DNA of 26,651 nucleotides from a bacterium (lineage in GTDB: Bacteria > JAMCPX01), in assembly GCA_021789095.1 (NCBI GenBank), contig JAJYJX010000008.1, positions 1 through 26,651 of the forward strand, in the 5' to 3' direction. Positions 8,724-26,651 of the stretch are shown one piece after another (within the stretch, counting starts at the first letter, position 1; every line of letters starts with the position of its first letter). The notes under the pieces were generated by a model, which was not told where the DNA came from, did not search any database, and saw nothing but the letters and a program-made list of their open reading frames with translations. A program made the translations under genes and the position numbers.

Positions 8724-9146
8724 ATGAACAGAGCAACATACGCACTTGTACCGCATACAGCAGACATTTGTATAGAAGTGAATGCAAAAGCATTGCGCGA
8801 ACTTTTTCTTAATTCTGCAACAGCGCTTACAGAACAGATAGTAAAAACAAAGAAGGCAAGTAAAAAGGAAACCAGGGAAATAGAGATTGCAGCACCGGAC
8901 ATGGATTCGCTTTTAATATACTGGCTCCAGGAACTGCTGTATAATTTTTATGTACACGGTTTGGTTTATGTTGATGCCCGCATCAGGGTTTTAACAGTCA
9001 AAAAACTCAAAGTTAACGCTGTTTTTTGCAGGTTCAGGCCGGAAAAACATGTTGCCTTAAGGGAGGTCAAGGCTGTTACATACCACAATGTGCACATTAA
9101 AAAAATGGGAGGCAGGTATATGGTCAGGATCGTGCTTGACATATAA
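8724..9146 (+). CDS. Archease, activator of RtcB
   Basis: Archease promotes guanylylation and multiple turnover of the RNA ligase RtcB. The protein has 140 residues, the normal size. The family's N-terminal signature is visible in YALVPHTADICIEV, the middle has DSLLIYWLQELLYNF, and it ends in the conserved acidic VLDI. AAAGGAG lies 7 bases upstream of the ATG. rtcB begins 78 bases downstream on the same strand, the classic archease-rtcB arrangement, which makes the functional call strong. It shares a 144-base divergent region with feoB (8580-8723). Confidence 0.93.
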   Translation: MNRATYALVPHTADICIEVNAKALRELFLNSATALTEQIVKTKKASKKETREIEIAAPDMDSLLIYWLQELLYNFYVHGLVYVDARIRVLTVKKLKVNAVFCRFRPEKHVALREVKAVTYHNVHIKKMGGRYMVRIVLDI

Positions 9147-9224
9147 ATCCTGCAAAGAGAGAAGAGTTTTCCCGTTATTTTAACTGGATTTTTTAAGATA
9201 AGGAAAAAATTTAACTGTACTGAC

Positions 9225-10670
9225 ATGAGTGAAATGAAGCTGAAAAAGATAGATGCTTTCAGGTGGCAGATACAGCAGGAAAACGGCATGAACGTGCCGG
9301 GTATCGTTTATGCCGATGACAGGATGATGGAAGAGCTGCGTAATGATGAATCACTAAAACAGGTACGCAATGTTGCAATGCTGCCCGGCATTATTTATGC
9401 CTCTATTGCAATGCCCGACATACATACAGGTTATGGTTTTCCGATTGGGGGTGTTGCTGCTTTTGACAGCACGGAGGGCATTATCTCACCGGGCGGCGTT
9501 GGTTATGATATCAACTGCGGGGTAAGGCTGTTGAGAACAAACCTGAACAGGGAAGAGATCAAACCAATCATAGAAAAGCTCGTTGACAGTGTATTTTCAA
9601 ATGTACCCTCAGGCGTTGGTTCCCACAGAAAAGACATACGCTTTTCCAGGGCAGACCTTGATCTGGTTTCGGTACATGGCGCAAAGAATATCATTTCAAG
9701 GGGCTTTGGTTTCCCCGAAGACGAGCGTAGGATCGAAGAATCAGGCGCTATTTCCGGGGCCGACCCGGAGAATGTAAGCCAGAGGGCTAAAGAGCGCGGG
9801 CACGATCAGCTGGGCACCCTTGGTTCCGGCAATCACTTTATAGAAATAGGATTTGTGGAAGATATCTATGATCCCGAGACAGCACAGGCATTCGGATTGT
9901 TCCAAAATGGAATAACAGTACTTATCCATACAGGTTCTCGCGGGTTTGGTTATCAGATATGCGATGATTATATCCGCACCCTGCAGAACTATTCATACAA
10001 GCACGGCATAACGCTGCCCGATAGACAGCTTGTCTGGACGTACTTTAAGTCAAAAGAAGGACAGAAATATTTCAGCGCAATGAATTCAGCGGCAAATTTT
10101 GCATTCGCAAACAGGCAGTTGATAACTCACTGGGTTCGTGAATCTTTTGAACATGCGCTTGGCAGGAAGGCGCAAGCTATCGGCATGAACCTTGTATACG
10201 ACGTTGCCCATAATATCGCAAAAGAGGAAAAATACAGGATTCAGGGAAGGGAGCGCATGCTTATTGTGCACAGAAAGGGTGCCACACGAGCTTTCCCGGC
10301 AGGTCATCCTGATGTTCCCGAGGTTTACAGATCAACCGGCCAGCCGGTGTTAATCCCCGGAGACATGGGCAGGTATTCATATGTGCTGGTTGGAACAGAA
10401 CGAACGTTAACGGAAACATTTGGAACAGTGTGTCATGGTGCGGGCAGGGTAATGAGCAGGGGTCAGGCAGTCAGGGCGGCAAAGGACAGACAGATTCTAC
10501 GGGAACTCAGGGGAAAGAACATTATTGTAAGAGGTGCGACAAGGGCCACGATCAATGAAGAGATACCGGAAGCATACAAGGATGTAAGCAGGGTAGTTGA
10601 TATCGTAGCAGGCGCAGGACTCGCAAAAAAAGTAGCAAAACTTCACCCCCTGGGTGTAGTTAAAGGATAA
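9225..10670 (+). CDS. rtcB: RNA-splicing ligase RtcB
   Basis: A GTP- and Mn(II)-dependent ligase that joins RNA 2',3'-cyclic phosphate or 3'-phosphate ends to 5'-OH ends. The 481-residue length is typical of the archaeal-like form. Visible motifs in order are MPDIHTGYGFPIGG, GGVGYDINCGVR with metal ligand Cys98, GSGNHF, IHTGSRGFGYQI, VYDVAHNIAKEE, and CHGAGR with the guanylylated His404. Cys98 and His404 fall at the same residue numbers as in the archaeal enzyme, so the core is essentially collinear. It follows archease, and the pair is probably cotranscribed. Neither an Rtc-type regulator nor the cyclase rtcA is nearby, so the RNA substrate (damaged tRNA/rRNA or a dedicated target) is unknown. 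ATG 9234, three codons in, is a possible alternative start. Confidence 0.95.
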   Translation: MSEMKLKKIDAFRWQIQQENGMNVPGIVYADDRMMEELRNDESLKQVRNVAMLPGIIYASIAMPDIHTGYGFPIGGVAAFDSTEGIISPGGVGYDINCGVRLLRTNLNREEIKPIIEKLVDSVFSNVPSGVGSHRKDIRFSRADLDLVSVHGAKNIISRGFGFPEDERRIEESGAISGADPENVSQRAKERGHDQLGTLGSGNHFIEIGFVEDIYDPETAQAFGLFQNGITVLIHTGSRGFGYQICDDYIRTLQNYSYKHGITLPDRQLVWTYFKSKEGQKYFSAMNSAANFAFANRQLITHWVRESFEHALGRKAQAIGMNLVYDVAHNIAKEEKYRIQGRERMLIVHRKGATRAFPAGHPDVPEVYRSTGQPVLIPGDMGRYSYVLVGTERTLTETFGTVCHGAGRVMSRGQAVRAAKDRQILRELRGKNIIVRGATRATINEEIPEAYKDVSRVVDIVAGAGLAKKVAKLHPLGVVKG

Positions 10671-15091: not shown

Positions 15092-15439
15092 ATGGCTGTT
15101 TACAAATATACACATCAGAATTTGGGAGAAGAGGTAACAGCTGTTTCAGGCTATTACTCATTGAAAAATGAGGCACAGCTGGAGTACGGAGGCAGGCAGT
15201 TGTATTATTATACAGGCTACAGCGTTGTTGATACTTCCTGCTGCGGCCCCGGCGGGTGCGGTTTTGCATTGGTTGTCGGATATATCGTAAACTGGAAAAA
15301 CGGCAGCACCGCAAATGGTATCGATACATCTGATATAGAGCCTGTAACGGATGATGCACAAAGGCAGGAAATAAGGAAGCTTCTTACCAAATCTATACAC
15401 GTACAGCAGGTTAATTTCTGGGCACCGCAGGCGCGGTAA
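15092..15439 (+). CDS. Conserved-looking 115-residue protein with CCGPGGC motif
   Basis: I do not recognise a named function. The protein is small, predicted soluble and has no signal peptide. Its middle carries VVDTSCCGPGGCGFALVVGY, with three cysteines in a glycine-rich turn, and the ends are Tyr/Gln-rich and polar. The cysteine cluster could bind a metal or cluster, or be redox-active. An RBS (gaggg) precedes the ATG, and the codon use looks like that of the neighbours. It stands alone between the thiolase operon and the efflux operon, 141 bases after one and 133 before the other. The next operon's gap begins with an A/T-rich stretch. Real coding status is likely; function is open. Confidence 0.75.
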   Translation: MAVYKYTHQNLGEEVTAVSGYYSLKNEAQLEYGGRQLYYYTGYSVVDTSCCGPGGCGFALVVGYIVNWKNGSTANGIDTSDIEPVTDDAQRQEIRKLLTKSIHVQQVNFWAPQAR

Positions 15440-15572
15440 GCCCTCCTGATAAGAAAAAAACATTGCAACCGACCGGCGCAGAAACACTTGACTTTTATCT
15501 TTTTTTATATGATTAAAAAATCTTCATTCATAAATTGAATTGCTGTTCGAAATTATTGAACGCGAGGTAAAT

Positions 15573-16652
15573 ATGAAAGATAAAAGGGTTGCAGCCGCAA
15601 TCATAATTATTCTTGGGTTTCTGGTAATACTGTTTATCAGAACAAGGGGTTCAGGCCGTCATGCTGTTAAACGCGCGACCATCCCTGCAGTAACAATCGG
15701 ATATCCCATGCAGATGGACCTGAATAAAACGATAACCCTTACCGGCAGTATTATGGCGGTTCAGCAGGCCAGCATATTTGCACGGGTAGGCGGATACCTT
15801 GAAAAGATCACGGTTGATGTGGGTGACAGGGTCAGCAGGGGGCAGGTCCTTGCCGTTATAAATTATAATGACCTGCAGAACCAGTACGAACAGGCAAAAG
15901 CAAACTTCGAGTATGCAAACATCCAGTACGAAAGGGCAAAAAAGCTGATCGAAAAACAGTTGATCTCGCAGAACGACCTTGATATGGCAAAAAACCAGTA
16001 CAGCGTGACACAGGCATTGATGAACGTAGCGGCACTTAATCTGAGTTATGCTACCATCCGTGCACCGTTCAGCGGTTACATAGCGAACAGGTATGTTGAT
16101 CCTGGTACGCTTGTCCCCGGTTCAACGCAGATGGTGCCTGCAACGCCCATTCTTGTTCTCGTGGATACCAATACGGTGAAAGTCATGGTAAACGTGTCCG
16201 AAAAGGACGTCTCAAATGTGCGCGCAGGAATGCCTGTTACAGCGGTGACCGACACATATCCGGATAAAATATTCAGGGGAGTTATAAGCCGCGTATCGCC
16301 TGCACTTGACCCGGCAACAAGGACCATGGGGGTTGAGGTGGATATACCCAATCCCCAGCACCTACTAAAGCCGGGCATGTTTTCCAGGGTCAGTATTGTT
16401 TCAGAATCGCATAAAAATATCCTGGCGGTCCCTGTATCGGCATTAATAAATACTGACGATAAAAAGAATCTCTATGTTGTTGAAAATGATAAGGCAATAC
16501 TTGTTCCCGTAGAAGACGGCATTGAATCCGGCGGTATGGTGGAAATTAAGAAAGGCATCAACCGGGAGTCCGCTGTCGTTGTGGCGGGACAGGAAGCGCT
16601 GCACGAAGGCGAGCAGGTGACAGTCCAGCAGCCTGCAGAGGAATCGAAATAA
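15573..16652 (+). CDS. RND efflux membrane fusion protein
   Basis: The periplasmic adaptor linking an RND pump to an outer-membrane channel. I choose ATG 15573 with GAGG five bases upstream; a TTG at 15540 would add 11 residues without an RBS. This gives 359 residues. An N-terminal membrane anchor (about 6-23) is not a lipoprotein box. Then come a lipoyl half with VGGYLEKITVDVGDRVSRGQ, an alpha-helical hairpin (NQYEQAKANFEYANIQYERA onward), the second lipoyl half ATIRAPFSGYIANRYVDPGT and beta-barrel/membrane-proximal domains. Its stop directly abuts the pump's ATG. The A/T-rich 133 bases upstream contain TTGACT (15488) but no convincing -10. Substrate cannot be inferred. Confidence 0.93.
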   Translation: MKDKRVAAAIIIILGFLVILFIRTRGSGRHAVKRATIPAVTIGYPMQMDLNKTITLTGSIMAVQQASIFARVGGYLEKITVDVGDRVSRGQVLAVINYNDLQNQYEQAKANFEYANIQYERAKKLIEKQLISQNDLDMAKNQYSVTQALMNVAALNLSYATIRAPFSGYIANRYVDPGTLVPGSTQMVPATPILVLVDTNTVKVMVNVSEKDVSNVRAGMPVTAVTDTYPDKIFRGVISRVSPALDPATRTMGVEVDIPNPQHLLKPGMFSRVSIVSESHKNILAVPVSALINTDDKKNLYVVENDKAILVPVEDGIESGGMVEIKKGINRESAVVVAGQEALHEGEQVTVQQPAEESK

Positions 16653-19600
16653 ATGCCCCTGTCAAGATTTGCGCTGAAAAACCCCATATCGATATTGATG
16701 ATTGCCATAGCAGTGGTGGTGCTTGGCGCAACGAGCGTGAACAAGCTTTCCGTTGACGTATTCCCGAGTATAACAATGCCTGTTGTGGTTGTAGGGACGC
16801 TGTTCCCGGGCGCAAGCCCTGCCGATGTCGAGCGCTCCATAACATACCCCATTGAAAAGTCCGTGGCGTCCGTCAACGACGTATCATACATCCAGTCCAT
16901 GTCGAAAGAGGGCTTTTCCATGGTCATGGTGTTTTTTAATTGGGGGGCGAACATAGACAGGGGTTCTGTTGATATTATAGAGAGCATCCAGCGCATCATG
17001 AGTATGCTTCCCCCGGGCATACAGCAGCCGTTCGTCGTAAAATTCGACATCTCGAATATCCCGGTATGCATGGTCACCGTATCGAGCAACCGGCTGAACG
17101 GACTCCAGTTGAACGATCTTGCAACCAATGTCGTCGAGCCGCAGATAGAGCACCTGCCGCACGTTGCGGCTGCAACCGTGAACGGCGGACTCATACGGCA
17201 GATCAATGTCGACCTGAATCCCGAGAAGCTGATAGCAAAAAACGTCTCCTTCATGGATGTTATCATGGCAGTAACAAACGCAAACTTCATACTCCCGAGC
17301 GGTGACATAAAGATCAACAACCTGGACTACAACCTGTTTACGACAAACCAGTTCACCACAGTACCTCCCATGAACAACATCGTGGTCAAGGTTGTCAACG
17401 GGGTGCCGATACATATAGGTGATGTGGGCCAGGTACTGGACGCCGCCCAGACACAGACAAACATAGCAAGGGTCAACGGGAAGAGCGGCGTTTATCTTGT
17501 CGTGAATAAAACGCCCGGGGCAAACACCGTTGATGTCGTTGATGCCGTCAAAGGGCTCCTGCCCCATCTGTTGAACATACCCGGGGGCGTAAAGTTCGAC
17601 GTATCGTTCGATCAATCCATATACATCAAGCAGGCCATAAACAGTCTTATCCATGAGGCGTTACAGGGAGCCTTACTTGCTTTTCTTATCATACTTGTTT
17701 TCCTGAGGAGCTTTACCAGCACGCTCATTATCTCGCTCTCCATACCCCTGTCCGTGATGATGACTTTCATCCTGCTCTATTTTGTAGGTCACCAGACGCT
17801 GAATATGTTTACCCTCGGAGCGCTTACGCTGAGCGTCGGAAGGCTTGTTGACGATGCCATTGTCGTCCTTGAAAATATCTACCGGCACCGTGGTCTCGGC
17901 AAGAGCCCGGTGAAGGCCGCTATCGACGGTTCCGGAGAAGTTGCAATGCCGGTCCTTGCCTCTACGATAACAACGATCTCCGTGTTCTTCCCGGTCGTTT
18001 TTATAACGGGCATTGCACGGCTTTTATTTGAACCCTTTGCGCTTACCATTTCATTCGCACTGATCGCATCGTACTTTGTATCCCTAACGGTGATACCCGC
18101 CCTGTCAAAGAAATATCTCAGACCTGAAAAGGACTACAGCGTGAAATCCGGAAGACTCTATGAAAGGATATTTGCAAGGAGCAAGGCGTTTTTTGACGGT
18201 ATAGACAGCATGTACCAAAATACGCTCGGATGGGCATTGTCGCATAAAAGGGTTGTCGTGTTCGGGATAGCTGGGCTGTTTGTCGTATCCCTGTTCCTCG
18301 TTAAATTCATCGGTACAGAGTTTTTCCCGCAAACGGACGAAAACCAGTTTTTAATCACCATGCGCGCACCCATAGGGACGCGGCTTGAAATAACAAACCA
18401 GTATGTGAAGCAGATAGAGCAGATCATCCGCGATACAATACCTGCGAAGTATATCAAGACGGTTATATCAAATGAAGGCCTGCCGTCGGGGTTCGGAGCC
18501 ATATGGAGCCAGAACACGGGCCCGCATGCGGCACAGATCCAGGTAAACCTTGTTACCCCGGATAAAAGGGATGAAAGCGACGTTGAACTGATGAACAAGG
18601 TGAGAAAGCGCATGGAGGGAGTCATCACCGGCATACAGACCTATTTCTTATCCGGAGGCATTGTTTCCCGTATCCTGAACTTCGGCTCCACAGCGCCGGT
18701 AGACGTTGAGTTATACGGGTACGATCTCGCCACGGCAGCAGAGCAGGCCCAGAGGGTCGCATCCGTTATGCGAAAAACGCCCGGCGTGACGGACGTCATG
18801 ATAAGCAGGGAAGAGGACTATCCGGAAATCGACATCAACGTTGACAGGGAAAAGGCGGCGCTTGCAGGCGTTGACCAGAGGACGGTTGCGAATACGGTCC
18901 TTACGTCCATGAGTTCCAGCCTCAGCATATTCCCGTCCATTTATACGGACCCTGTAACAGGGAACAATTACTATGTCGTTGTACAGATGGACAAACGGTT
19001 TACCGAGGGTATGGAAAACCTCGAAGACATCCCCCTGCCAACGTATACCGGCAAATCGATATTCCTCAAAGACATTGCGGACATAACAAAGAGTGTCGGG
19101 CCCGTGCTGATCGAGAGAAAGTACCAGCAGAGGGTGATACACATAACGGCTAACGCGACCGGCAGGCCGCTCGGAGATGTTGCTTCAGACCTGTCAAAGG
19201 CGTTCTCCAGGCTCAACCTGCCGCCCGGGTTCTACGTAAGCATGAGCGGTGAAGTCGCACAGCAAAAGGGTGCATTTACCAGCATGTTTTTCGCACTGCT
19301 GCTTGCAATAATGCTCATCTACATGATCATGGCTTCGCAGTTCAAATCATTGATAGACCCGTTTATCATTATGTTCTCGGTCCCCATGGGATTCATCGGG
19401 GTTCTCTGGATGCTGTTCATCACAAATACAACCCTGTCCATAGAATCCTTCATGGGAGTTATCATGATGATCGGTATTGTTGTGAGCAACGGCATACTAC
19501 TTGTTGACTATACAAACAGGCTCAGGGCACAGGGCATAGAACTGCACGAAGCGGTTATCAAAGGAGGAAGGACAAGGTTAAGGCCGATTTTGATGACGAG

Positions 19601-19799
19601 TCTTGCCACGATTCTCGGACTTATCCCCATGGCTGTAGGCATAGGAGCGGGAAGCGAAACCAACATGCCGCTTGCCCGTGCCGTGATAGGCGGATTGCTG
19701 GTTTCGACATTCCTGACCCTTCTCCTGATCCCCACGCTCTACACGATTTTCGAGGAGCGATTTAAGAGGACCATAAAACAGGACGAGGAATTGAAATAA
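16653..19799 (+). CDS. RND efflux pump permease, AcrB-like (HAE1-type)
   Basis: A proton-driven inner-membrane trimeric pump component of 1048 residues, a full-length RND protein. It shows the two-fold layout: a first helix (ISILMIAIAVVVLGATSV), large periplasmic loops and two helix bundles. The proton-relay aspartates are present in VGRLVDDAIVVLENIYRHR. At the place of AcrB Lys940 the sequence reads GIVVSNGILLVDY, so Ser replaces Lys, as seen in several non-AcrB RND branches. Both flanks are fused tightly: the ATG follows the adaptor stop with no gap, and the stop shares one base with the next ATG (19799). The features fit drug/lipid-type HAE pumps rather than the metal-type CusA found at the right end. 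Confidence 0.94.
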   Translation: MPLSRFALKNPISILMIAIAVVVLGATSVNKLSVDVFPSITMPVVVVGTLFPGASPADVERSITYPIEKSVASVNDVSYIQSMSKEGFSMVMVFFNWGANIDRGSVDIIESIQRIMSMLPPGIQQPFVVKFDISNIPVCMVTVSSNRLNGLQLNDLATNVVEPQIEHLPHVAAATVNGGLIRQINVDLNPEKLIAKNVSFMDVIMAVTNANFILPSGDIKINNLDYNLFTTNQFTTVPPMNNIVVKVVNGVPIHIGDVGQVLDAAQTQTNIARVNGKSGVYLVVNKTPGANTVDVVDAVKGLLPHLLNIPGGVKFDVSFDQSIYIKQAINSLIHEALQGALLAFLIILVFLRSFTSTLIISLSIPLSVMMTFILLYFVGHQTLNMFTLGALTLSVGRLVDDAIVVLENIYRHRGLGKSPVKAAIDGSGEVAMPVLASTITTISVFFPVVFITGIARLLFEPFALTISFALIASYFVSLTVIPALSKKYLRPEKDYSVKSGRLYERIFARSKAFFDGIDSMYQNTLGWALSHKRVVVFGIAGLFVVSLFLVKFIGTEFFPQTDENQFLITMRAPIGTRLEITNQYVKQIEQIIRDTIPAKYIKTVISNEGLPSGFGAIWSQNTGPHAAQIQVNLVTPDKRDESDVELMNKVRKRMEGVITGIQTYFLSGGIVSRILNFGSTAPVDVELYGYDLATAAEQAQRVASVMRKTPGVTDVMISREEDYPEIDINVDREKAALAGVDQRTVANTVLTSMSSSLSIFPSIYTDPVTGNNYYVVVQMDKRFTEGMENLEDIPLPTYTGKSIFLKDIADITKSVGPVLIERKYQQRVIHITANATGRPLGDVASDLSKAFSRLNLPPGFYVSMSGEVAQQKGAFTSMFFALLLAIMLIYMIMASQFKSLIDPFIIMFSVPMGFIGVLWMLFITNTTLSIESFMGVIMMIGIVVSNGILLVDYTNRLRAQGIELHEAVIKGGRTRLRPILMTSLATILGLIPMAVGIGAGSETNMPLARAVIGGLLVSTFLTLLLIPTLYTIFEERFKRTIKQDEELK

Positions 19800-21151
19800 T
19801 GGGCAAACTTTCTTATTATATGTTTTACGTTAAAACAGTAGCATTGATTTTGTTTACGGCATTGCTTCTGTTTTCTTTCAACGGAACAGCATATGCGGAC
19901 AATGATCAGACGCTGTCGCTCAGACAGTGCGTAGAGATAGCACTGAAAAGGCAGCCTGCGATAAGGGCGGGTACCACCCAAACGGAGATAAACAAAGGGA
20001 TACTGACCCAGGCGCGCTCTGCCTGGTATCCATGGATAAGTGCACAGGGCGGGTACACAAGGGAAACCAATAACTATGTTTTTCCGCCTGCATTTTCAGC
20101 GTTTATTCCCAACGTATCGATGCGGGAGAGCAACACCTCGTATGACTATTATACGGCGTCTGTCGGGTTTAACTGGCTGCTGACGAATTTCGGCCAGAGG
20201 CTTTACACGATACAGGCACAGAGACGGGCGGTTCAATCATCGCAGTACAATGAACAGACAACAATGGCCGATGTTATATTCAATGTCACCCAGAGCTATT
20301 ACGGACTGCTCGCAGCCCTGCACCTCTCGGATGTCGCCGCAGAAGTACTGAGCGAGAGTACAAAGCACCTTGAACAGGCACAGGGTTTTTTCAGTGTGGG
20401 GAGGGTCTCCCGCATCGATGTTGCAAGGGCCGAAACAGACCGTGCGAACACACTGCTGAACATGATAACGGCCGGTAACAACGTCGAGCTCGCAACGGTG
20501 AACCTGCTCAACACCATGGGTGTCAACGACACGGATACGGTTACCATAATCGATACCATTTCACCAACAACACAGGACGTTGATACGGGCAGCGCCATAC
20601 AAAAAGCGATGGACAACAGGTCCGAGCTGAAAGCACTGTATGCAGTAGAAGAGGGCTTCGGGGCGTCACAGAACGCAACGCTTGCATCCAACCTGCCGAC
20701 CGTTGTCGGTACAGGAGGGTACAGCTGGGCAGGCTATCATACACCGCTTACGTGGAACTGGGCCGTTGGTATCGGAGTGCAGTTCCCCCTGTTTTCGGGC
20801 TTCATGACGTACGGCAAGTACGCAGAGCTCAAGGCACGGCAGCACAATGCGCAGGCGCAGATAGACGAGATGAAGCAGGGCATTGTGTTTCAGGTAAAAC
20901 AGGCAAGCCTGAACCTGCACCAGGCGAAGAACAGTATCGAAGCGGCGCAAAAGGCAATGGAAAGTGCACGGCTGAACCTTGAACTTGCGGAAGGCAGGTA
21001 TGCCACGGGTGCGGGCTCTATCATAGAGCTTACGGACGCCGAAGCGCTTTTTGCATCGACAAGTGCAAGCTACATACAATCTGTCTACCAGTACAATGTC
21101 GCACTTGCACAACTTGAGCGTGCAGAAGGTATTATAACAAAGGGTTATTAA
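19799..21151 (+). CDS. TolC-family outer-membrane efflux protein
   Basis: The outer-membrane exit duct of the RND pump, 450 residues. A signal peptide (hydrophobic core LILFTALLLFSF, likely cut after TAYA) precedes LSLRQCVEIALKRQPAIRAG, the typical start of an OEP repeat. The second repeat begins around QFPLFSGFMTYGKYAELKAR, with heptad-like coiled-coil helices and a final AEALFASTSASYIQSVYQYN. The ATG overlaps the pump stop by one base, so the three components should be made in linked amounts. No lipobox cysteine follows the signal peptide, so it resembles TolC more than OprM. Confidence 0.92.
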   Translation: MGKLSYYMFYVKTVALILFTALLLFSFNGTAYADNDQTLSLRQCVEIALKRQPAIRAGTTQTEINKGILTQARSAWYPWISAQGGYTRETNNYVFPPAFSAFIPNVSMRESNTSYDYYTASVGFNWLLTNFGQRLYTIQAQRRAVQSSQYNEQTTMADVIFNVTQSYYGLLAALHLSDVAAEVLSESTKHLEQAQGFFSVGRVSRIDVARAETDRANTLLNMITAGNNVELATVNLLNTMGVNDTDTVTIIDTISPTTQDVDTGSAIQKAMDNRSELKALYAVEEGFGASQNATLASNLPTVVGTGGYSWAGYHTPLTWNWAVGIGVQFPLFSGFMTYGKYAELKARQHNAQAQIDEMKQGIVFQVKQASLNLHQAKNSIEAAQKAMESARLNLELAEGRYATGAGSIIELTDAEALFASTSASYIQSVYQYNVALAQLERAEGIITKGY

Positions 21152-21194: not shown

Positions 21195-23177
21195 ATGAAG
21201 GATAAGGATCGTAAAATTGTTCATGCTGCAACATACGGGATCTTAGATATTGTTTTTTTATTCCTTGTCTTTTTACTGGCTTTCTTACTGGCCTTTAATA
21301 ACATATCCGAGCCTGATGCATTCTGGCATCTAAAACTGGGCCAATACATACTCGATACGCACAGCCTGCCGTACAAAGACATATTTTCTTATACACTTGC
21401 AGGTACTCCTGTTTTTCCCGTTGAATGGCTGTTTGAGGTTATCTGGTTTTTTATCTATAAGCACACAGGCATTGCAGGTCTCATTATAGCAAAATCAATG
21501 ATTGCCGGACTTACTGCCGCCCTTTTGTATCTGTCCGCGCTCAATTACAGGGTAAACAGGTATATCGGCTTTGCTGTTATCAGCGGCATTTTTATTGCTG
21601 CAGGTTTTTATTTTGCAGACAGACCGCAATTAATAACCTACCTGTTTATTGCCCTGTTTGTCTATCTTATCTCCCTGTATGATAATGGGCACAGGCATTT
21701 GATATGGTTACTGCCTCTCATTATGCTTTTATGGTTTAATATGCACCCGGGCGCTGTGTTCGGTTTGATCTTTTTAACGGGATGGGTGTTCGAAGGCTTT
21801 GCAAGACTTTTAAAAAAAGAGATTAAAACAAGCGAATACCTTAACTATCTTGCTGTATTTATAGCAGCGTGCGCAGCATCATTTATAACACCTTCAACGT
21901 ACCATCTTTACACATTTTTGTTTCACCATGTAGCGTCGCTTGGTGTAAAAGGCGGGCTTGAATATATTAACGAATTTAAGGCCCCGAACTTAATAACGGA
22001 TCCGATCATGTTAATAATGCTTTCTGTATTCGCAGCGGCATTAGTCACAAGCATAAACAGAATACCTTTCAGATACGTGTTTTTCGGATTTATAATGATC
22101 CCTATGGCATACGGCATGGAGCGCATGGTTATTGTAACATTCATAGGCACTGTGTGCGGCGTTTGTATGGTGATTGATAAAGCTGTTTCACTATTGAAAA
22201 GGTATAAACTGGTCTCCAAACCTTTTTACATTGCTATTGCAGCATTACCTTTCCTTTTTGTTTTACATCAGTACAGGACGGATGACATGGGATATAAAAG
22301 CGTAGGTATTTACCGATCCATTTACCCTGACAGGGCAATAGATTTTATACTAAAGCACAAAATGAAGGGTAATATATACAATGAGATGAACTTCGGCGGT
22401 GCTCTGATCTTCCTCGGCTATCCCGAGATCAGGGACTTTATAGATACAAGGTTAACCCCTGAAAAAGTACTGTTGCCTAAGGTAGCGAATGCAATGGAAA
22501 GCCCGCAGGCGTTCCAGAGCCTTATGCATGAATATAATGTCACTTACGCATTGATATCTACCGGTGATCCTCTCGATTACAGCAAATTGTTTCCAGAGCC
22601 TCAATGGACGCTTGTGTATTTCGATGATTATGCACAGATCTATGTAAAAAGGAATACAGGAAATGATGAGCTTATAAGTAAGTACGGTTACCGGGTGTTT
22701 AATCCTCATTCTTTTATCTATACCTTTGAAGCATTTGTATCACCACAGGCATACTTCACCACGCCCGGATTATTTAAGGAGCTGCAAAGACTTGTAAAAG
22801 AAGTACCATACAGTGCAATGGCGCACCTTGCCTATGGTGTTGCTGTGATTTATGACAATGCTGATTACACGGATGGTTTAAAGCAGATTGATACTGCAAA
22901 GCAAATAATGCCTTACAGCCCCACGGTACTGTTATGGTACGGCATTGAACATGGGCTGAACGGGAATATCAAAACAATGGAGAAAAGCTTTGATACGGTT
23001 AGTAACGTTATATCCGGAGAAGAACATTTTATGAATACAGCAGTTATGAACTATATTATGGGTTATTACTATTATGTGGCCGGACAAAAGAATCAGGCCG
23101 TCAAAAGCCTGAAGACAGCCGTGAGGCTTGATCCAAAGCTTTCCCAGGCACAGGAACTGCTTGATCGTATACAATAA
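21195..23177 (+). CDS. Multi-pass membrane protein with TPR-like C-terminus (GT-C-like)
   Basis: A 660-residue integral membrane protein with roughly ten hydrophobic helices in the first 370 residues, then a soluble tail. The opening EPDAFWHLKLGQYILDTHSL resembles bacterial GT-C-like membrane families (usual pattern DPDTWWHL.G), where an acidic residue sits in the first periplasmic loop. The segment GALIFLGYPEIRDFIDTRLT resembles the post-membrane motif of the same group. The last 120 residues hold TPR-like helices (YYYYVAGQKNQAVKSLKTAV, then RLDPK). It starts 43 bases after the efflux operon and has no clear RBS; TTGACA at 21160 lacks a well-spaced -10. Catalytic activity is unproven; it may be a glycosyltransferase or an inactive relative. 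Confidence 0.75.
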   Translation: MKDKDRKIVHAATYGILDIVFLFLVFLLAFLLAFNNISEPDAFWHLKLGQYILDTHSLPYKDIFSYTLAGTPVFPVEWLFEVIWFFIYKHTGIAGLIIAKSMIAGLTAALLYLSALNYRVNRYIGFAVISGIFIAAGFYFADRPQLITYLFIALFVYLISLYDNGHRHLIWLLPLIMLLWFNMHPGAVFGLIFLTGWVFEGFARLLKKEIKTSEYLNYLAVFIAACAASFITPSTYHLYTFLFHHVASLGVKGGLEYINEFKAPNLITDPIMLIMLSVFAAALVTSINRIPFRYVFFGFIMIPMAYGMERMVIVTFIGTVCGVCMVIDKAVSLLKRYKLVSKPFYIAIAALPFLFVLHQYRTDDMGYKSVGIYRSIYPDRAIDFILKHKMKGNIYNEMNFGGALIFLGYPEIRDFIDTRLTPEKVLLPKVANAMESPQAFQSLMHEYNVTYALISTGDPLDYSKLFPEPQWTLVYFDDYAQIYVKRNTGNDELISKYGYRVFNPHSFIYTFEAFVSPQAYFTTPGLFKELQRLVKEVPYSAMAHLAYGVAVIYDNADYTDGLKQIDTAKQIMPYSPTVLLWYGIEHGLNGNIKTMEKSFDTVSNVISGEEHFMNTAVMNYIMGYYYYVAGQKNQAVKSLKTAVRLDPKLSQAQELLDRIQ

Positions 23178-23337: not shown

Positions 23338-23724
23338 CTACTGGTACATGCCCTTGTTTCCGGACGGCTGCGTCTGTTTGTTTTCCTGTCCTGACGGAGT
23401 GTTGGCACTGTTGATGTACTTTTGAGGGTCTTGCAAAAATTGCTCTTTTTCCTGATCAGAGGCAAAGTAGAACTTCATGTCCCTGTAAATCGTAAAAGGA
23501 GTAGCCTTTGTTAGCTGTACTTTGACGTGGGACACGGGAGATATGGCGTAGCGGGTTTCACCGGACTGCCCCTGTCCATTGTCCATGCTTTCATTGTTCT
23601 GGCTGATCATCACTCCATGCGGGTCGCATGCACTGCACGCTCTTGATCGCTCTGCAAATATCGCGATGGCTGTAACAAGCAACAGAATTGTCAGTAATTT
23701 TATTGTTAGATTAAATCCCGTCAT
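23338..23724 (-). CDS. Secreted YHS-like protein lacking the metal-site cysteines
   Basis: A 128-residue protein with an N-terminal hydrophobic segment (LTIKLLTILLLVTAIAIF), so it is exported or membrane-tethered. Just after this lies CSACDPHG. The middle follows the YHS pattern: ISPVSHVKVQLTKATPFTIY, then RDMKFYFASDQEKEQFLQDP and QKYI. Where YHS domains have PVCGM and YFCS..C, this has PVSHV and YFAS..E, so the usual cysteines are gone. The tail is Gln/Ser/Asn-rich. The RBS is GGGGG before the ATG. The gene starts 15 bases after the true YHS gene and probably shares its transcript. Role in metal handling is inferred from context only. Confidence 0.75.
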   Translation of the reverse strand: MTGFNLTIKLLTILLLVTAIAIFAERSRACSACDPHGVMISQNNESMDNGQGQSGETRYAISPVSHVKVQLTKATPFTIYRDMKFYFASDQEKEQFLQDPQKYINSANTPSGQENKQTQPSGNKGMYQ

Positions 23725-23739
23725 TGTTTCCCCCCTTTT

Positions 23740-23901
23740 TTATTTTGTTTTTTGCGTTAAATATTTTTCCGGATCTTTTTCAAATTTGTCCTTGCATCCT
23801 TTGGCGCAAAAGTAGTAGGTTTTTCCTTTGTAATCATACTTTGCTGCTGCAAGTTTTTCATCAACTACCATCTTGCATACGGGGTCTTCATATTTTGCCA
23901 T
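23740..23901 (-). CDS. YHS-domain protein, 53 residues
   Basis: A short gene running from ATG 23901 to TAA 23740, with GGGGAGG six bases upstream of the ATG. The product opens MAKYEDPVCKMVVDEKLAAA and contains GKTYYFCAKGCKDKFEKDPE. These are the complete hallmarks of a YHS metal-binding domain: PVCxM, YYFCxxGC and KDPEKY. There is no signal peptide, so it should be cytoplasmic. YHS domains are found in copper ATPases and copper-resistance loci, matching the cusA context. It has its own promoter candidate and follows a terminator that ends the upstream genes. Binding of Cu or Ag is inference from family and neighbours. Confidence 0.9.
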   Translation of the reverse strand: MAKYEDPVCKMVVDEKLAAAKYDYKGKTYYFCAKGCKDKFEKDPEKYLTQKTK

Positions 23902-23915
23902 GTTAACCTCCCCTT

Positions 23916-23944
23916 TTTATACTTTATACACGGAATAAAGTAAA
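23916..23944 (-). promoter_or_regulatory. Promoter with dyad upstream of the YHS gene
   Basis: On the minus strand, TTTACT (23944-23939) and TATAAA (23921-23916) are separated by 17 bases. An inverted repeat, ACTTTAT (23921-23927) and ATAAAGT (23935-23941), extends by one further pair and covers the spacer. This is where MerR-family or repressor proteins would bind, though MerR promoters usually have 19-20 base spacers. Confidence 0.5.
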
Positions 23945-23964
23945 TACAAGTTCCGGATTCTTAC

Positions 23965-23997
23965 AAAAAAAGGACAGCCACTTAAGCCCGCCCTTTT
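23965..23997 (-). terminator. Intrinsic terminator after the Met/His-rich gene
   Basis: On the minus strand AAAAGGGCGG pairs with CTGTCCTTTT (10 pairs, two of them G-T), followed by a run of seven T. It lies 15 bases beyond the stop of the Met/His-rich gene. It should end or attenuate the cusA transcript before the YHS genes. Confidence 0.75.
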
Positions 23998-24011
23998 TCA
24001 AGCAGTTCACA

Positions 24012-24596
24012 CTATTTGCCGTGCATACCGTTCATATCTGGCATATTACCGTGCTGTTCATTCATGTGTTCGTTCATATTCATCTCATGCTGCATCTGCT
24101 CGTTGCGGTGCTGCATCATCTCTTGCATATTCATTCTTTCCTGTTGCTGGACCTCATTTCTTATCTGATTGGCAGCATCCATACTATTTTTATCCTTTAC
24201 CTGTTTTGCATGATTTTCATAGGCATTTATATTTGCATAAACGGATTTCATGACATCACCAAGCTTCAGATTGTACTTCTGCGCGATCTCTCCCCATCCC
24301 ATGCCCTGTTTTTTCAAGGTCATAATCCGGCTCAGGGGTTGGTTTGATGCCTTTGAAAGCGCCCCTGCAATAACGATTTCCCCGTCTTCATGGTGCTCCT
24401 TGCGCATTGCCTCTATGGTTCCGGCTTTCAGTCCCCCGGCCTTCTCCATCAATCGCAGTTGTTCCTTATTCTGGAGCTGCGTTTGTGCCTGAGTTTTATT
24501 TTGTGTCTGGGTGGTTGTTTGTTCTGCTGCAACCACTGTTCCTGTTAAAGCAATCGCTATGGCTATTGCGCCGATGCCTGCTAACACTTTTTTCAT
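24012..24596 (-). CDS. Secreted Met/His-rich protein, probable periplasmic metal binder
   Basis: A 194-residue exported protein of no family I can name. The signal peptide (MKKVLAGIGAIAIAIALTGT, cut near VVAA-EQ) is followed by a Gln/Thr-rich linker, a globular middle with KKQGMGWGEIAQKYNLKLGD, and a C-terminal 45 residues dominated by Met, His, Asn and Glu (MQEMMQHRNEQMQHEMNMNE, then HMNEQHGNMPDMNGMHGK). Such methionine-rich tails bind Cu(I) or Ag(I) in periplasmic carriers such as CusF- and PcoE-like proteins, though no homology to these is claimed. A strong RBS (AAGGAGG) precedes the ATG. It lies 36 bases after the beta-barrel gene, in the same direction, so it is probably cotranscribed with cusA. 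Confidence 0.85.
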   Translation of the reverse strand: MKKVLAGIGAIAIAIALTGTVVAAEQTTTQTQNKTQAQTQLQNKEQLRLMEKAGGLKAGTIEAMRKEHHEDGEIVIAGALSKASNQPLSRIMTLKKQGMGWGEIAQKYNLKLGDVMKSVYANINAYENHAKQVKDKNSMDAANQIRNEVQQQERMNMQEMMQHRNEQMQHEMNMNEHMNEQHGNMPDMNGMHGK

Positions 24597-24632
24597 ATTG
24601 TTTCCTCCTTTTTACTTTAGACTTTGTAATTA

Positions 24633-25502
24633 TTAAAACGTAACAGCCAATCCTATTGTAAAGGTTGAAATGGTTGATGTAAAGTAATTCATGGACGGAA
24701 AATTATTCATACCTGTGCCTGACATCCCGCCGCCCATGCCCCCGCCCATTGCCAAGGTACCCATAGTACCCCTGTTGGAAGATGAGCTGTTGGAAAGATT
24801 GTTCACCGGATTGGTCGTTATGCCGGTTGATAGTTTATACAGTGCGTATATGCTGATGTATCTGATTATGTTGTACGATGTGCCCATTTCAAGTGCCGCA
24901 TCCTGCTCTGAGACGTCCGGGTTCACGGATGTATCGACAATACCTCTCATATAAAGCCACCATTTGTAGGTTGGATAAAAATATCCGCCAAGGAATGCAC
25001 CGATAAAGCTGCCGGGTCCATAGACATAATAATAAACAGGACCAGCGCCCACACTGACAAAGTCCGTTATGGCATACCTGCCCTCAAGCCGTGTTGAGAC
25101 AGAATAATAGCCGTTTGTATTGGATGTTGCCCCGAATGTGTAATTTGCGACCCCGCCGAGCTTAAATCTGCTGCCTATTCTCTGATACAGGTCAGCATAG
25201 AGGATATGAAACTCCTCCGTAGAGGACGTTTGAGCGACTCCCCATTCATGCGAATAGCCTGCATCCATATACGTCTTGTACGAAGGCGCATAGCCGAGCT
25301 TGCCGTACAGGGTGTAAAAGGTCTGGTTCTGATCCGTAAATGACACATCGCTGCCCACACCCGGATAAAAATCAGCATGGGTATTGGTTGCATAGCCAAG
25401 CAACAATAAAAGGATACCCCAATAAAGTACAATAACAAGGTTTGCTTGTTCGCTATTTTTCAAATAAGCTCTAAGAATACTCAAATGTATTGGCCGCTTC
25501 AT
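24633..25502 (-). CDS. Outer-membrane beta-barrel-like protein coupled to CusA
   Basis: I choose ATG 25502: AAGGAGG lies four bases upstream within cusA, and the start overlaps the cusA stop as ATGA. The longer open frame upstream would run inside cusA. This gives 289 residues. A signal-like segment (LVIVLYWGILLLLLGY) ends at THA-DF. The rest alternates aromatic and polar residues as in beta-barrels and ends in phenylalanine (FTIGLAVTF), the usual outer-membrane assembly signal. A loop before the last strand is Met/Gly-rich (GTMGTLAMGGGMGGGMSGTG, then MNNFPSMNYF), with six Met in about 27 residues. No named family is recognised; it is not TolC-like. Translational coupling and the Met-rich loop suggest a role in Cu/Ag handling. 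Confidence 0.82.
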   Translation of the reverse strand: MKRPIHLSILRAYLKNSEQANLVIVLYWGILLLLLGYATNTHADFYPGVGSDVSFTDQNQTFYTLYGKLGYAPSYKTYMDAGYSHEWGVAQTSSTEEFHILYADLYQRIGSRFKLGGVANYTFGATSNTNGYYSVSTRLEGRYAITDFVSVGAGPVYYYVYGPGSFIGAFLGGYFYPTYKWWLYMRGIVDTSVNPDVSEQDAALEMGTSYNIIRYISIYALYKLSTGITTNPVNNLSNSSSSNRGTMGTLAMGGGMGGGMSGTGMNNFPSMNYFTSTISTFTIGLAVTF

Positions 25503-26651
25503 TGTGCCTCCTTTTTTTCCTGTTTTGGCAATGCTTTTCTCTTCCAGTAAAGATAGATTACCGGGTATACGACAAGCTCCATGATCGCGGAGGTGAATAC
25601 GCCTCCTATCATAGGCATGGCAATACGCTTCATGACATCCGCACCGCTCCCGTGACTCCACATGATTGGCGCAAGCCCCATAATAATGGCAACGACGGTC
25701 ATCATCTTCGGGCGTATTCTCTGGACAGCACCGTACATGATGGATTCCTTGAGATCGTTTTCGGTGTGCATCTTTCCCTCATCGATCCACCGGTGATAAG
25801 CCTCATCAAGGTACACGAGCATGACGACCCCTGTTTCGGCATCAACACCGGCAAGTGCAATGATACCGACCCATACTGCAACGCTGAGCTCGTAATGCAC
25901 GATGTAAAGTCCCCAGAAAGCGCCGGTCAGGGAGAACGGGATCGCAAGCATGACAAGGAGCGCCTCTGTTACCGAATGTTTGTTGAAATACAGGAGCAAA
26001 AACACAATAAACAGGGTAAGCGGGATCACGATCATAAGGGTCTTTTTCGCGTGTTCCATATATTTATATTCGCCCGTCCACTCAAGCGTATAACCCGCGG
26101 GAAGCATGCCATTTTTTATGATCCCATCGTTTACGGCTTTCTTTGCGCGTTCCACGTATCCGCCGATATTGCTTGTGTTCAAGTCCACATACACCCAATC
26201 GGAAAGCATGCCGTTTTCGTCCCTTATCATCGGAGGTCCGTTGACTCTATGAATACTGGCAAGCTCTCCTATGGGAACCTGGGCGCCTGACGGCGTTGGA
26301 ACAAGTGTCATCTTGAGGTTATCGGTATCATCGCGGAGTTCACGGGGATACCGCAGCGCAATCGCAAAACGTTCGCGTCCGTTGATAACCTTGCCGATGG
26401 ACATACCGCCTATGGCTGTTTCTATAACATCCTCCACATCGCTGATGGTCAGCCCGTACCGTGCGATTGCTTCACGGTTTATGTCAAAATCTATGTAATG
26501 CCCGCCCACTGCCCTTTCCGCAAAAACACTCCTGGTCCCGGGTATCTTTCCGAGGGTGCTTTCCAGCATCTTCCCGATATTTTCCATTTCGCCGAGATTT
26601 GGGCCATAGATCTTAATACCAACAGGGGTACGTATGCCTGTGGTCAGCATG
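25499..26651 (-). CDS. cusA: CusA-family copper/silver RND pump, C-terminal part
   Basis: The gene enters from the right edge; about 383 C-terminal residues are present. It follows E. coli CusA throughout: MLTTGIRTPVGIKIYGPNLG, NREAIARYGLTISDVEDVIE, then IALAGVDAETGVVMLVYL and RIRPKMMTVVAIIMGLAPIMW. The helix motif has Glu as in CusA (GVAAEFGVVM), unlike the Asn-type of Zn/Co pumps (CzcA), supporting Cu(I)/Ag(I). The first visible Met corresponds by position to the third methionine of the CusA metal site (Met672), so the metal-binding triad may be complete upstream. The stop overlaps the next gene's ATG. Expected partners cusB and cusC would lie beyond the edge or elsewhere. Confidence 0.93.
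   Translation of the reverse strand, partial: MLTTGIRTPVGIKIYGPNLGEMENIGKMLESTLGKIPGTRSVFAERAVGGHYIDFDINREAIARYGLTISDVEDVIETAIGGMSIGKVINGRERFAIALRYPRELRDDTDNLKMTLVPTPSGAQVPIGELASIHRVNGPPMIRDENGMLSDWVYVDLNTSNIGGYVERAKKAVNDGIIKNGMLPAGYTLEWTGEYKYMEHAKKTLMIVIPLTLFIVFLLLYFNKHSVTEALLVMLAIPFSLTGAFWGLYIVHYELSVAVWVGIIALAGVDAETGVVMLVYLDEAYHRWIDEGKMHTENDLKESIMYGAVQRIRPKMMTVVAIIMGLAPIMWSHGSGADVMKRIAMPMIGGVFTSAIMELVVYPVIYLYWKRKALPKQEKKEAQ

Follow-up and report, generated by a model that had tools for sequence, protein, structure and literature searches.

A predicted barrel with its methionine- and histidine-rich partner, and a separate YHS pair, downstream of cusA in a family of uncultivated bacteria

Introduction

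When several small genes follow the gene for a copper-efflux permease, do they encode one machine with that permease, or separate additions to it? The question is raised by one end of a 26,651-nucleotide stretch of bacterial DNA (hereafter the window), which makes up the entire contig C87 in a genome of 2.15 Mb and 203 contigs (G000). Read on the minus strand from the contig end inward, the genes are a fragment of cusA, a gene for a predicted outer-membrane (OM) beta-barrel, a gene for a secreted methionine- and histidine-rich (Met/His-rich) protein, a gene for a YHS protein and a gene for an exported YHS-like protein. These five genes had been listed in a preliminary description of the window, and all of the reading frames and their order were borne out. 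The same description proposed that the four genes behind cusA form a single accessory module relaying Cu(I)/Ag(I) across cytoplasm, periplasm and outer membrane. In this study, the locus was compared across nine genomes of the family (G000 to G008). Combined, the results look like two independent add-ons, with the locus being a local variant of copper-efflux operons and not one four-protein machine.

Separability of the genes downstream of cusA

The barrel and Met/His-rich genes lie directly behind cusA in three genomes (G000, G006 and G007), and in all three a hairpin followed by a T run comes after the Met/His-rich gene; the hairpin was found by folding and is absent from the list of a consensus terminator scan. 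Additionally, the promoter-like element TTGTATTT-N-TGTATAA precedes the YHS gene in seven genomes. Six of the nine family genomes show separate inheritance of the two pairs: the order cusA, YHS gene, exported YHS-like gene occurs without the barrel and Met/His-rich genes in G002, G003, G004 and G008, and no copy of the latter pair was found in G002 or G005. The YHS gene follows cusA, directly or after the inserted pair, in every genome that has the junction on one contig (6/6). The barrel pair of G007 is followed by a YHS gene that runs off the end of its contig, and in G006 the full order is spread over two contigs. The single module of the preliminary description does not hold up, because a terminator and a conserved promoter split the pairs and relatives carry them separately. 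The simplest reading of these gene orders would be that a cassette, comprising the barrel gene, the Met/His-rich gene and the terminator, sits between the cusA stop codon and the YHS promoter.

The CusA pump and the absence of CusF

The window holds the last ~37% of cusA, with the contig ending at the equivalent of Escherichia coli CusA M672. The best NCBIfam model for the fragment is TIGR00914 (CusA/CzcA), on which it scores 357 because it is truncated; the full-length orthologue of G007, to the matching part of which the fragment is 82% identical, scores 1118 bits against a cut-off of 701. The CusA orthologues of four other family genomes are 88-89% identical to the G007 copy. In E. coli CusA, a periplasmic methionine triad (M573/M623/M672) binds Cu(I)/Ag(I). 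Of the three equivalents only that of M672 falls within the window fragment, and all three are conserved in the CusA of G002, G003, G004, G006 and G007, which supports the earlier assignment of the pump to the Cu(I)/Ag(I) type.

The preliminary description also set the locus apart from a standard cusCFBA layout. Since the contig ends inside cusA, the upstream layout is not readable from the window, and relatives have the order cusC-cusB-cusA: CusB-like and CusC-like genes lie upstream of cusA in G002, G003 and G004, and a CusB-like gene does so in G007. The remaining part of cusA was on none of the genome's other contigs; the candidates for the missing N-terminus, C46 with C106 and C6 with C34, proved to encode different pumps. 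No match to CusF (PF11604) was obtained in ten genomes at E values up to 0.1, with a positive E. coli control. Such an absence is ordinary, as a survey of gammaproteobacterial genomes found CusF in 26% and CusA in 60% (PMC3548706). The locus resembles the E. coli CusCFBA and SilCFBA systems in CusA orthology, in the three metal-binding methionines and in the cusC-cusB-cusA order of relatives, and differs from them in that no CusF was found in the ten genomes searched and that barrel, Met/His-rich and YHS genes lie downstream instead.

The barrel and the Met/His-rich protein

The start codon of the barrel gene overlaps the cusA stop codon (ATGA), confirming the proposed coupling, and three genomes, from two different genera, have this overlap (window, G006 and G007). 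The barrel matched no Pfam family at E values up to 1, the CopB/PcoB family included, and its profile retrieved no PDB chain at E values up to 10. An AlphaFold2 model, with a confidence (predicted local distance difference test, pLDDT) of only 44, is all-beta. It aligns to the 12-stranded OM barrels NalP and KdgM at Z 17.8, and its alignment to PcoB, a copper transporter (7pge), has Z 13.1. These model alignments support the proposed OM barrel; a fold common to the model and PcoB is not proof of shared function. In a strand-alternation test, weak when taken alone, 17 of 500 shuffles reached the observed value. The last loop (residues 232-271) is rich in methionine and glycine, with 6 Met in 40 residues, and should face outward if both termini are periplasmic. 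Outside the family, a 386-genome sample gave one borderline match (G340, E 1e-3), and a scan of GTDB r220 returned five loci, all of them copies already seen and none outside the family. Judging from these searches, the barrel family appears lineage-restricted, with copies in this bacterial family only.

The proposed secreted, Met/His-rich nature of the second protein was confirmed by a signal peptide and by a tail in which Met and His account for 16 of the final 43 residues (p about 8e-11, with the proteins encoded in the window as background). Its predicted helical core (model pLDDT 76) has no significant PDB relative by fold or sequence. Outside the family, 13 of 377 genomes contain profile relatives of the core, and those inspected are without the Met/His tail; within the family the tail is retained in most copies, at cusA and away from it. 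The protein combines an exported helical domain, widespread and unnamed, with a Met/His tail specific to the lineage. In another family, a core relative without the tail lies directly 5' of an unrelated 154-aa predicted OM barrel (L148:1350-2402; L149:5857-6811). The exported helical domain and a barrel may be a recurring pair.

The nearest known parallel to the pair is PcoA-PcoB/CopA-CopB. PcoB forms an OM barrel of 12 strands, and its gene has four bases in common with that of its periplasmic partner (PMC12509749). The two systems share a probable 12-stranded OM barrel with a secreted partner and a four-base overlap of the barrel gene with the preceding gene. Unlike in the known systems, however, the secreted partner in the window is not a multicopper oxidase and the barrel is coupled to cusA. 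The window barrel also lacks the His/Met-rich disordered region that precedes the first strand of PcoB/CopB, its Met-rich stretch being the last loop.

The YHS pair

Two YHS-type proteins, one cytoplasmic and one exported, are present as had been described. The 53-aa cytoplasmic protein matches PF04945 at 67 bits against a cut-off of 30.3, and its DPVC and YYFCAKGC cysteines are intact. The exported protein reaches only 26.9 bits against the same cut-off and has no cysteine within the domain; in the alignment, only the CxxC that follows the signal peptide is left. Within the domain, G002, G003 and G005 have CPVC, and the window, G004, G006 and G008 have SPVS. The exported YHS-like proteins of L115:10257-10661 and of the window (23338-23724) illustrate how this metal site has been lost in some genera of the family. 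Because the YHS cysteines are lost, a relay through the exported protein is doubtful in the window's genome.

The 53-aa protein resembles known YHS-domain metal proteins in being a PF04945 member with its cysteines, and within the same genome a P-type ATPase likewise begins with a YHS domain (L119). It differs from the YHS domains at the N-terminus of copper P-type ATPases and from free YHS proteins in that it stands alone here and is accompanied by an exported, degenerate copy. In the literature searched, no paper brought together the YHS domain, CusA and copper.

CusA loci outside the family

Of 23 CusA relatives from outside the family, only two (L044 and L182) have a YHS domain within 1.5 kb, so that cusA-YHS adjacency was rejected as a general rule. 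The first genes downstream of cusA more often encode Met/His-rich proteins: 4 of 16 have at least 10% Met+His, versus 6.6% of background open reading frames (p 0.018). Since these four are of other kinds than the window's protein, a secreted protein rich in Met and His seems to have arisen behind cusA more than once, by convergence. Exported examples at L160, L164 and L178 are like the window's protein in position and composition, whereas their sequences differ by eye and no coupled barrel gene accompanies them; a coupled OM barrel behind cusA was seen at no other CusA locus outside the family.

Features of the window and neighboring genes

The features of the locus are collected in Table 1. 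A second efflux operon of the resistance-nodulation-division (RND) type, encoding an adaptor, an AcrB-like permease and an outer-membrane factor (15540-21151), converges on the cus locus, and the same convergent RND neighbor was found in G004, G006 and G008. Between them, positions 21195-23177 encode a 660-aa membrane protein with a weak TPR match at its C-terminus. Further along the contig are a gene for a small protein containing a CCGPGGCG stretch (15092-15439) and, at 8724-10670, what we take to be an Archease-like gene immediately 5' of an RtcB-like RNA ligase gene.

Table 1. Positions and supporting evidence of the features at the cus locus of the window.
Feature	Position	Strand	Evidence
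cusA, C-terminal 383 codons	25499-26650	minus	PF00873 5.3e-73; TIGR00914 1.9e-106
Predicted 12-stranded OM beta-barrel, 289 aa	24633-25502	minus	fold of low-confidence model; ATGA overlap with cusA
Secreted Met/His-rich protein, 194 aa	24012-24596	minus	signal peptide, helical core, Met/His-rich tail
Intrinsic-terminator hairpin	23969-23996, T run 23961-23968	minus	folding -13.2 kcal/mol
Promoter-like element TTGTATTT-N-TGTATAA	23924-23949	minus	conserved 5' of YHS gene, 7 genomes
YHS protein, 53 aa, cytoplasmic	23740-23901	minus	PF04945 1.2e-18
Exported YHS-like protein, 128 aa	23338-23724	minus	PF04945 5e-6, below Pfam cut-off

Competing explanations

The explanation that we favor, and consider rather probable, is a Cus-type pump joined by a coupled pair, a periplasmic copper buffer and an OM barrel that together replace CusF, and by a separately transcribed YHS pair. 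It builds on the observed gene content and order, the coupling, the separability of the pairs, the absence of CusF, the CusA methionines of the orthologues and the architecture of the barrel in its low-confidence model. Copper would then be the ligand of the add-ons as well: CusCBA would export Cu(I)/Ag(I), the Met/His-rich protein would buffer these ions in the periplasm in the absence of CusF, and the barrel would act passively in the outer membrane as a pore or site of release, the part that PcoB plays for PcoA. Translational coupling would make the barrel in proportion to CusA. The YHS pair would form its own transcription unit, of which the cytoplasmic member could bind Cu(I) inside the cell.

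Several observations weigh against this explanation. The barrel and Met/His-rich pair lies away from cusA in 4 of the 7 genomes that carry it (G001, G003, G004 and G008), and no copper gene was seen beside it in those four. It adjoins glpK (glycerol kinase) in G003, G004 and G008, FadL-type and ferredoxin-like genes in G001 and G004, and a FadL-type gene in G008; G001, which is 99% complete, has the pair and no CusA orthologue. The preliminary description named an occurrence of the small genes without cusA in most genomes as what would refute it; the barrel and Met/His-rich pair shows such an occurrence, and the YHS gene does not. These off-cusA copies are the chief argument that the cassette may not serve Cus. 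Additionally, the pLDDT of the barrel model is low, and the G007 Met/His-rich protein has lost the helical core and kept the tail. Finally, the body of the window's cusA (25537-26651) is 96.9% identical in DNA to that of G003, another genus, and ~97% identical to part of that of G008, whereas other compared genes are at 66-83%; the high identity ends sharply at 25537, about a dozen codons ahead of the cusA stop. An exchange of cusA between genera appears likely from this pattern, and a chimeric assembly of the window contig possible. With cusA truncated in the window, G006 and G007 are equally important evidence for the arrangement. Neither an exchange nor a chimera would alter the conclusions, since this junction is also found in G006 and G007, where cusA is more divergent and shares 76-78% DNA identity with that of the window.

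The off-cusA copies also suggest that the barrel and Met/His-rich pair could be a general envelope module, such as a porin with its periplasmic partner, or one acting in envelope stress or on iron or another metal, that was inserted behind cusA by chance in one lineage. The glpK neighborhood, the copy in G001 and the occurrence of the core elsewhere as a widespread exported domain without the tail, once near an unrelated small barrel, are all consistent with this. However, the ATGA coupling was kept across two genera and the Met/His tail in most copies at both locations, and we regard the general module as unlikely. Gene trees cluster the cusA-linked barrel copies with moderate support (86/90), which is too weak to choose between a single insertion and relocation.

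A rather improbable third explanation would make the pair an undescribed OM metal-release system: the secreted Met/His-rich protein would carry Cu(I)/Ag(I) to its cognate barrel of 12 strands, whose Met loop would face outward, and the system would exist either on its own or coupled to cusA.

The one relay of the preliminary description, in which the barrel, Met/His-rich, YHS and exported YHS-like proteins would move Cu(I)/Ag(I) with CusA from the cytoplasm outward, draws on the order shared by G000, G007 and the two contigs of G006, and on all of the proteins being plausible metal handlers by composition or domain. With the pairs inherited separately, a terminator and a promoter of its own between them, and the cysteines of the exported YHS-like protein lost, the relay is unsupported and appears quite unlikely. 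That the cusA-barrel junction of the window is an assembly artefact, as the contig end within cusA and the sharp-edged identity to other genera might suggest, is very improbable given the same ATGA junction in G006 and G007 beside their divergent cusA.

Conclusions

Every part of the locus either is known or resembles something known, and within the range of the searches the combination occurs only in a single family of uncultivated bacteria; in agreement with the preliminary description, no named system of such composition appeared in the literature searched. The preferred explanation, a Cus-type pump with a coupled barrel and Met/His-rich pair and a separately transcribed YHS pair, shows how a CusF-less copper-efflux operon can gain other envelope proteins by modular insertion. 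The locus also brings together two uncharacterized families whose pairing can be tested, the OM barrel restricted to this lineage and the exported helical domain that is widespread. Should metal indeed leave across the outer membrane by way of this pair, it would represent a second solution of the PcoB kind, without sequence relationship to the first.

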